Below, one piece after another: positions 6,968 to 11,417 of a DNA stretch of 21,497 nt (position 1 is the first letter of the stretch; each line of letters opens with the position of its first letter). Source of the stretch: a virus; the IMG/VR virus record IMGVR_UViG_3300027621_000607, positions 1 to 21,497 of that record, one strand, 5' to 3'. A program made the translations under genes and the position numbers. Under the pieces are notes generated by a model. The model did no database searches. It saw nothing but the letters and a program-made list of their open reading frames with translations, and was not told the origin of the DNA.

Positions 6968-7122
6968 GTGCCTGTTTTCCTGGGGCTATCACTGGTCGTC
7001 GTGGACTCAATGGCTCATTGACTGTGTGATGGCATTGAAAAGACTGCCTCACACCCAGAATGAATGTATTGACACTAAGGCGTTAGTGCTTGCAGGGCTG
7101 TGGGTGCATCATTGACACCATT

Positions 7123-7220
7123 GCATTAGATGCGTTAGTATTAGCATTAGGGCATTAGATGCATTAGTATTAGCGTTACTAATAATGGTAGTGCATTAGA
7201 TGCGTTAGTATTAGCGTTAC
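7123..7220 (+). repeat. Three direct repeats built on GCRTTAG
   Basis: Copies start at 7123, 7152 and 7193. Each reads GCATTAGATGC, then R, TTAGTATTAGC, R, TTA (R is A or G), about 27 bases with only one or two differences. The units are 29 and 41 bases apart, and the third copy is followed by CTACTAA much as the second is followed by CTAATAA. Internally each unit holds several GCRTTA/TTAG words, so the array may have grown by slippage or be a cluster of protein sites. Confidence 0.85.
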
Positions 7221-7306
7221 TACTAACTGTTCCATTACGTTACTGCAGGCTTGACAACAACCAGTTCCTACCCCTTAATAATCCCCATGCCTTCACAACC
7301 TGTAAT

Positions 7307-7340
7307 GCGTTAGATGCGTTATTGCGTTAAATGCGTTAGT
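7307..7340 (+). repeat. Degenerate GCGTTA cluster
   Basis: GCGTTAGATGCGTTA (7307-7321) and GCGTTAAATGCGTTAGT (7324-7340) are further copies of the same word as in the main array, about 100 bases downstream. They show the motif is spread across the region and not confined to one tandem block. Confidence 0.7.
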
Positions 7341-7442: not shown

Positions 7443-7467
7443 AAAAAAGGGCAGTGTTAATGCCCTT
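7443..7467 (-). terminator. Intrinsic terminator of the amidoligase operon
   Basis: On the minus strand the stem AAGGGCA/TGCCCTT with a 7-base loop is followed by a T tract; the arms are 7461-7467 and 7447-7453, and the Ts are 7448-7443. It lies about 25 bases after the stop of the 201-aa gene. Confidence 0.85.
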
Positions 7468-7493: not shown

Positions 7494-8099
7494 TTACTTA
7501 CCCTTAAACCACTTATGATATCGAGATACGCACTCAATCTCTGTAGCGATATGCTCTAACTGGAACTCTTCGAGTTTGTTATACACTTGATATTTGAATT
7601 GCATCCAGTGTGCGGCTGGCGACAAATCAAGTGAATAATTGAACGTAGTGCCACCAGTTAGACTGTGTGTGTAGCGAAGCATCTCCATTACTGCTGGCGA
7701 CCATCGTTTAGATGGATTGCAGGTGTAATGGTATGTATGCTGGAACTTCACTTCATTGTCAATAACTAGTGAGTATGTCCAACCCAGCCGAGTATTGGAG
7801 CAAGTAATACTCCTATCTCGTAGAGAGTAGAACCTGTGCTTAGTCAACAGCATTGGATTAACTACCCAAATGCGTGCGAACTTTGGCTTTAAGTCACGTG
7901 CACATTTAGGAGTTTTAGGAGTAGGACGATAGCCTTGGATGCATCGAATCCATTGACTGCAAGCACCGAGAGCATCTGTTGGCTTTCGTGGTGGTTGTGC
8001 GTCGATGAGTTTGATTTGACGTTTGGCTTCATCTGTATTAACCCAATCATTGATGTCAGTGACAGGTTCCCAGTTGCCGATGTATGGATGGTATTTCAT
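7494..8099 (-). CDS. 201-aa protein, last gene of the amidoligase operon, unknown
   Basis: I choose ATG 8099 (MKYHPYIGNWEPVTDINDW); the frame extends 20 codons upstream only to a TTG. The protein is rich in Trp, Tyr, His and Cys. It has a basic middle (GYRPTPKTPKCARDLKPKFARIW would be too long to be a motif; key parts are CSQWIRC and LKPKFARIWVV), a strand-rich segment around GWTYSLVIDNEVKFQHTYHYTC and a helical C-terminus ending RYHKWFKGK. No family is recognised. It follows the amidoligase by 70 bases in the same direction and precedes the operon terminator, so it is a candidate partner, substrate or carrier for the amidoligase. That is inference from position. Confidence 0.8.
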   Translation of the reverse strand: MKYHPYIGNWEPVTDINDWVNTDEAKRQIKLIDAQPPRKPTDALGACSQWIRCIQGYRPTPKTPKCARDLKPKFARIWVVNPMLLTKHRFYSLRDRSITCSNTRLGWTYSLVIDNEVKFQHTYHYTCNPSKRWSPAVMEMLRYTHSLTGGTTFNYSLDLSPAAHWMQFKYQVYNKLEEFQLEHIATEIECVSRYHKWFKGK

Positions 8100-8130
8100 G
8101 TTCGTGGTGGAATAGGTTGATTGAGAGGGT

Positions 8131-8157
8131 GCTGGCACTCGGAGTGATGCTACCAGC
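8131..8157 (-). repeat. Inverted repeat between the amidoligase and the 201-aa gene
   Basis: GCTGG (8131-8135) pairs with CCAGC (8153-8157), and inside it CACTC (8136-8140) can pair with GAGTG (8142-8146) in an alternative fold. It lies in the leader of the 201-aa gene and could affect its translation. The two folds compete in part, so the structure is uncertain. Confidence 0.4.
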
Positions 8158-8169
8158 AATCTCGGTTAG

Positions 8170-9723
8170 TTACTGGATTTCTTCGCCTCCTTTGTTGTTT
8201 TTGCTGTAGAACTCGAATTCAAGTCCAGCAAACGATTGAGCGAGGCCATCCAATGCTGGAAGTGGCTTGTCACCAGCACTAATGTATGAGTGGTTAAACT
8301 TCATAATACGCTGGAAAACGTATACTTTCAAGTCCATCGGTGCATTGGATTGCATGAAGTCCTCAAGCGTTGCAACACGAGTGTTGGGTTGAGCCATCCA
8401 CTGAAGGAAGCGAACCCAGTAACGCAACTTGTGGTAGTTAAGCGTTGCCATCCCGAGACGCACTTCAATCGTTCGATGCTCTGCCCAACATTGAGTGTTG
8501 ATAGCACAATATCGACTATCTTCACCAAACTTATGGATAGAACAATACGAATTATTGGCACGCTTGCGATGAACCAAGCGATGTGCCCATTCACTCATTG
8601 CATCACGCATTTTAACGGCTGTTCGCATCGCACTTTGTGCTGTTCGTCCACGCATATCAATATGAACGTGATTACCACAAGAGCGATTAATACGTGCTCC
8701 GCTTGCAGTAATGGCTTTGAGTGTTTTCCTAACGTTATCCCACTCATCTTCGCTATTGCCATTGAGGAAGTAAGTCCACTCTTGATAGCGAGCAGTAGAT
8801 TCGCCGCTATCTATAGGATTGATAGAACCATCAGTCTTGAACTGCATCCAAGGGTATTGAGGGTAATCATCTTCGCACCAGTCCATAATCTCTGATTTAG
8901 TTTCTGCAATGAACTCTAACTCTAAACCAAGGCAATGACCTTCTGGACGCACACGTTCAGCGAGTTTTTTATGGAACTCATTCAAATTAGCGTTCCAACG
9001 TATTGGAGCAAGATTACGAATGAGGTCATACGCTTTATTGAGTTTAGTGCGAGGACTTTCATCAACAAGATGTTGAGTTATACACTCCTGTTTATGTATC
9101 GTGAGCGTATGTTTCAGCCGAGTATGACGCATAATGGTTTGAATTAAGTATTGCCAGTCAGCCCAGTGCATAACTATCTGCTGTTCTACATCATATTCAA
9201 CAACATCAGCGAAGGTTTTAACCTTTTTAGTGAGGTCAAAGCCTTGCTCAAATGCAACAGGTTCTTGACTTCCATAAACATTATACTGTAACACAGGCTT
9301 CTGAAGGCAATGAAGCCAAGCAACGTGGTCATAGCGATAATATTCATAAAGATATTGAGCGTGCATATGCATCCACGTCAATAAACTCATGTTATCTTTA
9401 CCACCTAACTTCACTTTCGATGCTTGAAGCATACGACTGGCTGAAGTCTTTAACGAGTTCATTTGATAACCGTTATTGTATCTTGGATTCCAGTTAGGCG
9501 AACCCTGCAATGCTACTTTAAGCATAAGAGGGTGCTGACGCAATTCAATTGGAAGAGCATTCCATTGTGCGACTGCATCCGCAGTGCTGTAGTTAGCAAG
9601 TCCACTAGAGTGCTTGAGGAGAACAAACGCTTTGAGTTGCTGTTTGCGAAGACTGCACTTACCGACAAGTTGCAATCCGTTATACTTACTGTTGAGGTTT
9701 TTAGCCTCAGTGGGAGCCGTCAT
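8170..9723 (-). CDS. Putative amidoligase (COOH-NH2 ligase fold) with a long N-terminal extension
   Basis: This 517-aa protein carries the signature of the amidoligase family, glutamine-synthetase-like ligases thought to join a carboxyl to an amine using ATP. Visible motifs are GLELEF (266-271), KTDGS (296-300), a glutamate-containing strand YQEWTYF (313-319), CGNHVHID (349-356) with the His-x-His-x-Asp pattern, and RTIEVR (417-422). The acidic and histidine residues would bind metal and ATP. About 255 residues precede the catalytic domain; they are Trp/Tyr/His-rich, helical and unfamiliar. The last residues (AGLEFEFYSKNN) echo the first catalytic strand, as if a second copy had been cut off. 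Upstream in the operon is a class II glutamine amidotransferase, a plausible ammonia donor. The substrate is unknown. Confidence 0.8.
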   Translation of the reverse strand: MTAPTEAKNLNSKYNGLQLVGKCSLRKQQLKAFVLLKHSSGLANYSTADAVAQWNALPIELRQHPLMLKVALQGSPNWNPRYNNGYQMNSLKTSASRMLQASKVKLGGKDNMSLLTWMHMHAQYLYEYYRYDHVAWLHCLQKPVLQYNVYGSQEPVAFEQGFDLTKKVKTFADVVEYDVEQQIVMHWADWQYLIQTIMRHTRLKHTLTIHKQECITQHLVDESPRTKLNKAYDLIRNLAPIRWNANLNEFHKKLAERVRPEGHCLGLELEFIAETKSEIMDWCEDDYPQYPWMQFKTDGSINPIDSGESTARYQEWTYFLNGNSEDEWDNVRKTLKAITASGARINRSCGNHVHIDMRGRTAQSAMRTAVKMRDAMSEWAHRLVHRKRANNSYCSIHKFGEDSRYCAINTQCWAEHRTIEVRLGMATLNYHKLRYWVRFLQWMAQPNTRVATLEDFMQSNAPMDLKVYVFQRIMKFNHSYISAGDKPLPALDGLAQSFAGLEFEFYSKNNKGGEEIQ

Positions 9724-9786
9724 GTTATTATTGTATTTGGTTGGGTTATGGCTGTAAAGCCAAGAGGGTTGGAAAACGTGGTAGAT

Positions 9787-10872
9787 TTACTGCTTCCACG
9801 GCTTGTTGAACTTGCGAGCGTTTTTGTGCATTTGAGCACGCACTTGTGCCTGCTGTTTTGCTGCTTCATCTAAGTCAGGTGCAGGAGTGTTAGGAGTAGG
9901 AGTGCTTGCGGCAGTAACAATACTAGGCACAGTAGGAGTAGTTGGTCTAGCAACTCCACTGTAACCATAATCATCATCCCAAGCAGCACCACTATAACCT
10001 ACAGCACCAGCACTGCCTAAACTACGATAGACACTAGCAATGCTTCCATACGACATTGTGCCTTTGAATGCCTTGAAGTCCTTTGAACTCACTAAACCGT
10101 CTTGATGGAACGTATGCATTACATACGCTTCAAGCATAAAGGCATCAGTGATAGTAGGGTTCTTGATATCCATAAACTTACAGAGCATATTGCTAACTTC
10201 AGTGCAATGTGCTGGGTCAGTGCAAACGACGTATTGCTTCAGTTCTAGAATGTATTGCACGTGAAGCGGTGCTCTGTCGTCTCTCAATGCGAACATTTCG
10301 CCTGCTGGATTAATGCCCACAATAGCAGCATAACCAGCAATGCCTTCTGTAAACGATTGCTCACCATTAAGGTAGAGAAAGCAGTTAAGCAGATGCTCTG
10401 AATCACACGTAGTTTGCAATGGCAGTTTAATGCCACTCCATTCTACAACTCCATTGTGGGCAATAGTCCATTGCGAGCCATTATGCGTCCCAGTAAAAGG
10501 ATGCGTATTAGCAATGACTTTGCCACACGTTGCAGTGCGTCCGTGTGCTATGAATGGTGCATTAACTATCTTCCCACTAGGCATCACGCCTTGCGAGTCG
10601 AAGTCTACCCCTTCTTTCAAAACCGTTTTAATTCCTGCTGGAATCAAGTTACGGCTTTGTTTGAGAGTGCCCATACCAGTAACGGCATTGGGGTTGAGAT
10701 ATCTTTCGATATACACACCCAATGACAGATTTGATATGTCACCAGTTCCAATTGCGAAACCGTAGCCATCTCGTTGAGATGAACCTAGCAGTTCGCTCGT
10801 TTTCTTAATTAGGGCATTTGATTGTTTCCTGCCCTTGACTGACAAGCCACTAATGGCTATTAACTTGCACAT
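9787..10872 (-). CDS. Class II glutamine amidotransferase (Ntn-hydrolase)
   Basis: The protein begins MCKLIAISG, so Cys2 becomes the N-terminal nucleophile after Met removal. Other class II motifs follow in order: RDGYGFA (34-40), AHGRTAT (109-115), HPF (124-126), AHNG (138-141) and the glutamine-binding CDSEHLL (156-162). It releases ammonia from glutamine. At 361 aa it has one Ntn domain (about 1-280) and a C-terminal tail rich in Pro/Thr/Ala that ends basic (KNARKFNKPWKQ), but no synthetase domain, so the acceptor must be another protein. The amidoligase 63 bases downstream is the obvious candidate. The start lies in an A-rich leader six bases after the small membrane gene. Confidence 0.92.
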   Translation of the reverse strand: MCKLIAISGLSVKGRKQSNALIKKTSELLGSSQRDGYGFAIGTGDISNLSLGVYIERYLNPNAVTGMGTLKQSRNLIPAGIKTVLKEGVDFDSQGVMPSGKIVNAPFIAHGRTATCGKVIANTHPFTGTHNGSQWTIAHNGVVEWSGIKLPLQTTCDSEHLLNCFLYLNGEQSFTEGIAGYAAIVGINPAGEMFALRDDRAPLHVQYILELKQYVVCTDPAHCTEVSNMLCKFMDIKNPTITDAFMLEAYVMHTFHQDGLVSSKDFKAFKGTMSYGSIASVYRSLGSAGAVGYSGAAWDDDYGYSGVARPTTPTVPSIVTAASTPTPNTPAPDLDEAAKQQAQVRAQMHKNARKFNKPWKQ

Positions 10873-10878
10873 ATTGTG

Positions 10879-11061
10879 TTATTGTTTTAGTTGACCTACA
10901 TTTAGTGATATCCACGCTATCAATACACTTGATAATATTAACGCAAGCAGTCCCATCACTACACTTAATGGAAGTAATGTGACAAGTTGAATCAACGCAT
11001 ACGTAGATTTCACTGTGGTAAGTCTAGGGATGATACCAGTCAATGTCAATACTAATCGCAC
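10879..11061 (-). CDS. 60-aa membrane protein, first gene of the amidoligase operon
   Basis: The frame starts at GTG 11061, which has an SD-like AAGGA about nine bases upstream, and reads MRLVLTLTGIIPRLTTVK at its N-terminus. Residues 22-54 are strongly hydrophobic (ALIQLVTLLPLSVVMGLLAL, continuing ILSSVLIAWI), enough for one long or two short membrane segments. It ends six bases before the amidotransferase start and lies behind a promoter candidate. It could anchor the system at the membrane or be a holin-like protein. With no known family and a GTG start it remains uncertain. Confidence 0.5.
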   Translation of the reverse strand: MRLVLTLTGIIPRLTTVKSTYALIQLVTLLPLSVVMGLLALILSSVLIAWISLNVGQLKQ

Positions 11062-11204: not shown

Positions 11205-11317
11205 GCATAACACTTTATGCAATGACTCAACCTGGTCAGCAATAGCATTACGTCACTGACAATAAGACTTCAGTGCGTGCCGGTCGTCATTGCATAAAGT
11301 ATTTCAGTGCTGTTATG
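11205..11317. repeat. Long inverted repeat with an inner hairpin (possible structured RNA or binding site)
   Basis: ACTTTATGCAATGAC (11212-11226) and GTCATTGCATAAAGT (11286-11300) are perfect 15-bp arms. The flanking CATAAC (11206-11211) can pair with GTTATG (11312-11317) after an 11-base bulge. The 59-base loop holds another hairpin, CACTGA/TCAGTG (11254-11275). The region lies between the terminator at 11390 and the amidoligase promoter and has no gene. The strand of any transcript is unknown. Confidence 0.65.
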
Positions 11318-11389: not shown

Positions 11390-11417
11390 AAAAAAACAGA
11401 GGTTGCGAGCCTCTGTT
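11390..11417 (-). terminator. Intrinsic terminator of the leftward small-gene operon
   Basis: Minus strand: stem AACAGAGG/CCTCTGTT with a 7-base loop followed by a T tract (11395-11390). It lies 45 bases after the stop of the 65-aa gene. The plus-strand side is followed by TGTATTTTATTT, so it may also stop weak transcription from the other side. Confidence 0.85.

Follow-up and report, generated by a model that had tools for sequence, protein, structure and literature searches.

What reaction might be carried out by a stand-alone glutamine amidotransferase (GAT) and a putative amidoligase that are encoded side by side in a phage? We addressed this question for a locus within a 21,497-nt (21.5 kb) stretch of DNA, hereafter the window, which comprised positions 1 to 21,497 of the IMG/VR virus record IMGVR_UViG_3300027621_000607 and was a fragment. 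In addition to this locus, the window encoded a large terminase (TerL), an Erf recombinase, a DUF3799 nuclease, an IstB/DnaC-like ATPase, a metallophosphoesterase-like protein, a phage lysozyme, and two tRNA genes. The presence of TerL, Erf, and the lysozyme agreed with the phage origin proposed in a first-pass annotation. Among 50,697 phage records, the terminase had a single match, a remote one (32%), and it had many matches among uncultivated viral contigs. Thus, the window belonged to a lineage with no close cultured member in that collection. The GTDB genomes scanned with the GAT and TerL profiles yielded no relative and hence no named host or prophage.

Organization of the locus

All four open reading frames (ORFs) that had been described between positions 7494 and 11061 were present on the minus strand (Table 1). 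Of 300 simulated windows, none had a chance ORF as long as 361 aa, and 7 had one of at least 201 aa. Therefore, both enzyme ORFs were beyond chance, while the 201-aa ORF was only moderately so. The set had also been described as bounded by a promoter candidate and a terminator. Terminator-like hairpins were indeed found on both flanks and were plausibly real, but the promoter candidate did not rise above chance, as 11 promoter-like sites were found versus 11.9 expected. The starts of the GAT and the ligase had no Shine-Dalgarno sequence and were preceded by the A-rich leaders AAACAATAACACAAT and AAATACAATAATAAC (window positions 10873-10890 and 9724-9745, respectively). Upstream of the 60-aa ORF there was an 18-nt inverted repeat (11209-11226 and 11286-11303) with arms that were 94% complementary and 59 nt apart.

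Table 1. Features of the GAT-ligase locus in window coordinates
Feature	Position	Strand	Basis or status
Orphan ORF, 221 aa from TTG (201 aa from ATG at 8099)	7494-8159	-	accessory, unproven
Amidoligase_2 protein, 517 aa	8170-9723	-	Pfam, PHROGs, homologues
Stand-alone class II glutamine amidotransferase (GAT; Ntn-hydrolase family), 361 aa	9787-10872	-	Pfam, PHROGs, homologues
Predicted membrane peptide, 60 aa, GTG start	10879-11061	-	hydrophobicity; accessory, unproven
Intrinsic terminator-like hairpin preceding the set, after the 11462-11659 gene	11395-11417	-	
Intrinsic terminator-like hairpin following the set	7447-7467	-	

Family, fold, and selection of the two enzymes

The GAT matched the Pfam model GATase_4 (1.9e-7, 30.8 bits, above the cut-off of 23) as well as GATase_6, and each of these models recognized all six members of the GAT alignment. 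The protein began with Met-Cys, and the active-site residues C2, R112 (HGR), N140-G141 (HNG), and D157 (CDSEH) were invariant in the six aligned sequences. These profile matches and invariant catalytic residues bore out its earlier assignment as a class II amidotransferase with a Cys2 nucleophile and a CDSEH motif. Close pairs of relatives indicated purifying selection over the whole protein (dN/dS 0.06-0.20), and the closest pair had zero non-synonymous changes in the protein body. Class II GATases were common among phages, with 186 records of the phage collection matching one, and they often adjoined amidoligases.

The ligase matched the Pfam model Amidoligase_2 (PF12224; 9.3e-10, 39.2 bits, curated cut-off 22), which also recognized all 12 aligned members of the lineage, and the identification of the two enzymes was further supported by PHROGs (2443, 3.7e-12). 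Its catalytic C-terminal domain (residues ~259-485) followed a helical N-terminal extension (residues 1-255). An AlphaFold2 (AF2) model built from the 12-sequence alignment had a pLDDT of 76.9, with values of ~90 in the C-terminal half and fair values in most of the N-terminal half. In this model, residues 259-485 folded like glutamine synthetase (GS) and YbdK, with VIA-align Z values of 10.9 to YbdK (1r8g) and ~10 to glutamine synthetases. The first-pass annotation had made its amidoligase call depend on such a fold at residues 260-440, and the GS-like fold was found to cover that region. The best 50 VIA-align rows all belonged to one superfamily (GS, YbdK, GmaS, glutathione-synthase-like proteins, and Dop; Z 9.4-10.9). 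Since these Z values were tied, the model would not place the ligase closer to YbdK, GS, GmaS, or Dop than to the others. Foldseek alone gave E-values of 0.003-0.03 to GS chains, which were firmed up by VIA-align, and searching PDB sequences with the profile of the ligase returned chance matches only. The GS-like motifs GLELEF, FKTDGSI, CGNHVHID, and TIEVR were largely conserved across the lineage.

According to close pairs of relatives, the C-terminal domain was under purifying selection (dN/dS 0.03-0.32), and the N-terminal half was under weaker purifying selection and evolved faster (dN/dS 0.19-0.60). The best viral structure match of the ligase spanned more than the catalytic domain, and the ~255-residue extension may therefore occur in other viruses too. 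A recognition part of an enzyme might evolve as fast as the N-terminal half did, and this would suit a protein-modifying role where the pair amidated or cross-linked a phage or host protein picked by the N-terminal domain of the ligase. The occurrence of Dop, from the pupylation pathway, among the fold matches (Z 9.6) pointed in the same direction. However, Dop was just one of many tied GS-fold rows, relaxed constraint would also yield a faster N-terminal half, and neither a tag protein nor a peptidase was recognized in the neighbourhood. Thus, we regarded such a role as decidedly unlikely.

Recurrence and inheritance of the gene pair

Scans of viral contigs with the single ligase or 221-aa protein sequence found nothing, while alignment-based scans worked for both the ligase and the GAT. 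These profile scans identified 14 related IMG/VR phage contigs with the ligase gene, 13 of which also carried the GAT gene next to it and in the same orientation. The recurrence in related phages that the first reading had asked of the pair was thus observed. The remaining contig was an 8.5 kb fragment that began inside the ligase gene and had no GAT. The gene order was GAT-ligase in 11 contigs and ligase-GAT in two, suggesting that the association had survived a rearrangement. Because two pairs of contigs (G011/G012 and G013/G014) were near-duplicates, the number of independent cases was smaller than the contig count.

Neither gene was found in 20 more distant TerL relatives (terminase 61-67% identical; 12 of which reached 30 kb or more) in a search with the same profiles that detected the genes in the carriers. 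Similarly, PF12224 had no match in 17 of the non-carrier terminase relatives searched. Another record (G028, terminase 76%) ended inside the ligase gene. The distances of GAT, ligase, and TerL were intercorrelated (r 0.93, 0.94, and 0.91), and descent within the carrier group therefore looked vertical. This weakened the argument from joint inheritance, since the joint absence was confined to more distant phages and the enzyme distances tracked TerL. Thus, the co-inheritance of GAT and ligase may simply reflect vertical descent.

Comparison with known phage cassettes

A peptidoglycan modification cassette of the LUZ24/phiEco32/RIO-1 type was described by Iyer 2009 and Hardies 2013, as cited in later phage papers (PMC5498523, PMC11945000, PMC10580990) where its role, modification of peptidoglycan that blocks superinfection, was offered as a conjecture. 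In LUZ24, the run of genes encoded a COOH-NH2 ligase, an amidoligase, a GATase, a RimK-like ATP-grasp protein, and a gamma-glutamyl cyclotransferase (GGCT). Variants of the cassette were present in RIO-1, Alcaligenes phage QDWS535, Klebsiella phage Klyazma, and Cellulophaga phage phi14:2. The window lineage resembled LUZ24 in having an Amidoligase_2 protein and a class II GATase within one run of genes, where they were adjacent. Moreover, both window proteins had profile homology to their LUZ24 counterparts (E 3e-7 for the ligase and 1.5e-6 for the GAT), which suggested that they formed the same kind of enzyme pair.

The other parts of the cassette were searched for in 12 records of the lineage, namely the window fragment, G007 (28 kb), and ten records of 39-45 kb. 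None of the 12 had a match to the COOH-NH2 ligase (PF14395) or GGCT (PF06094), both of which were detected in LUZ24 as the positive control. A phage-type ATP-grasp protein was also found in none of the 12 with a phage ATP-grasp profile that detected phiEco32 and Klyazma in the same search; this profile replaced PF13535, which was dropped after it missed both phage positive controls. Thus, the window lineage differed from the LUZ24-type cassette in having none of these three members and in the ~255-residue helical extension ahead of the catalytic domain of its ligase. Since the controls worked, we concluded that, judging from sequence, the window pair is a reduced two-enzyme form of a known kind of enzyme pair rather than a new kind.

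Other phages also had the two genes together. In the OM43 phages MEP401 and MEP402 and in more than 30 metagenomic genomes, an amidoligase (PF12224) was reported with a GATase (PF13522) (PMC10580990), and we likened them to the window pair by this published description only. The cluster AL Arthrobacter phages had an AIG2-like gene just ahead of their amidoligase-GAT pair (PMC5513430). The Arthrobacter phages Laroye (gp98-gp99) and Ottawa (gp65-gp66) encoded an adjacent amidoligase and glutamine amidotransferase, as annotated. The Laroye ligase, with the amidotransferase as the next gene, had a profile match to the window ligase (E 2e-11). In contrast to the window, the ligase preceded the GAT in both phages, and their ligases were shorter (337 and 324 aa) and had no long extension. 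Outside phages, the closest parallel that we considered was MurT-GatD, where MurT belongs to the Mur-ligase type and GatD falls outside the Ntn-type GATases. To our knowledge, neither of them is homologous to the window pair. The parallel is an analogy only: in the amidation of peptidoglycan glutamate by MurT-GatD, the ATP-dependent ligase receives its ammonia from a glutaminase that is a separate protein (PMC3267633).

Proposed function of the pair

We considered it somewhat probable that the pair performs glutamine-dependent amidation of a carboxylate as a phage-borne module of two enzymes. What is established for the two families suggested that the GAT hydrolyses glutamine and that the ligase forms an amide at the expense of ATP, and the adjacency and joint inheritance of the genes led us to infer ammonia transfer from the GAT to the ligase. 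According to this proposal, the GAT would lose Met1, after which Cys2 would release ammonia from glutamine by hydrolysis, leaving glutamate. The ligase, with its GS fold, would use ATP to activate a carboxylate, presumably as an acyl-phosphate like that formed by glutamine synthetase and gamma-glutamate-cysteine ligase. The activated carboxylate would then take up the ammonia, yielding a primary amide. The two proteins probably work either in a complex or as separate chains with handover from one to the other, and the faster-evolving helical half of the ligase would be a plausible part for recognition of the partner or the substrate.

Our best guess for the substrate was a carboxylate of the host envelope, possibly a peptidoglycan peptide or its precursor, although the target may also be a small molecule; any benefit to the phage was presumed. 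The envelope guess was borrowed from the literature on related phages, where it rests on a published conjecture (PMC5498523, PMC11945000, PMC10580990). In the literature consulted on related phage pairs, we found no experimental test of activity, substrate, or peptidoglycan modification. As the simplest version for in vitro reconstitution, the two-enzyme form could make the old guess of cell-wall modification and superinfection exclusion directly testable. A more specific proposal, which we regarded as possible though doubtful, would be that the two proteins suffice on their own to amidate one specific target in the host or the phage, that the helical N-terminal domain of the ligase selects this target, and that the substrate differs from that of the five-gene cassette.

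On the other hand, class II GATase folds include gamma-glutamyl amide hydrolases such as EgtC, and the GAT may therefore act on something other than glutamine. In that case, the ligase could attach glutamate (as a gamma-glutamyl group) or a different amino acid to an amine, from which the GAT-fold protein could remove it as an amidohydrolase. EgtA and EgtC of ergothioneine synthesis provide a precedent for such logic of addition and removal. The top VIA-align rows, YbdK and a predicted glutathione synthase, were gamma-glutamyl-ligase-like and would suit this alternative, but they were tied with glutamine synthetases. Similarly, GATase_4 was the best-scoring model for the window GAT, and EgtC (TIGR03442) was the NCBIfam model matched by most GAT members, though weakly (five of six, best 2.7e-4). 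However, GATase_6, PurF, and GlmS fitted these members about as well, and the EgtC score of the window GAT was 14.8 bits, far under the model cut-off of 218.65. A cyclotransferase was present in the related cassettes but was not found in the 12 lineage records. Taken together, a gamma-glutamyl cycle of this kind appeared rather unlikely, and glutamine-dependent amidation was the reading that we preferred.

The accessory ORFs

The first-pass annotation treated all four genes as one system. In such a system, the 60-aa peptide would serve as an anchor and the 201/221-aa protein would provide the substrate or specificity. The arrangement was suggestive, as the genes were on one strand, had short gaps, and lay between two terminator-like hairpins. 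The 60-aa ORF had a clear hydrophobic segment (Kyte-Doolittle 2.5), a good Shine-Dalgarno sequence (AAGGAAG) upstream, and a stop codon 6 nt ahead of the GAT start, and its codon score was negative (-0.40). Its product had no match in the neighbouring loci of relatives, where proteins this short are easily missed.

The 201/221-aa protein had no homologue in the 14 related contigs, 50,697 phage records, and 72,556 plasmids, and no Pfam, NCBIfam, or convincing PHROG match. The codon score of the 221-aa ORF was just above zero, and a few per cent of the simulated windows contained chance ORFs of 201/221-aa size. A single-sequence AF2 model of the 201-aa protein (pLDDT 36) was not interpretable. 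Thus, neither accessory was found in relatives that kept the GAT-ligase pair, and the claim of a conserved four-gene system did not hold. Five relatives (L002:10778-11179, L004, L005, L011, and L013) had instead a different, conserved gene of 130-146 aa directly behind the ligase. This gene had no family match, was not found in the window, and had no similarity to the 221-aa protein. Accordingly, we considered a single system of four genes very unlikely indeed, and the proposed amidation would involve the two enzymes.

Other observations

A role in DNA hypermodification was considered and set aside, as neither the window nor the small number of genes scanned in the relative G001 contained a clearly recognized pointer to it; G001 has a DNA methyltransferase and a PAPS-reductase-like protein. 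In G001, the methyltransferase gene (L153:9044-9664; PHROG 757) adjoined a metallophosphoesterase-like gene, and the PAPS-reductase-like protein (L152:8770-9570; PF01507, 5e-14) was encoded among virion genes. Downstream of the operon, an intergenic stretch of the window (7103-7338) carried a 20-nt repeat (GCATTAGATGCGTTA-like) in five copies and was possibly a replication or regulatory region.
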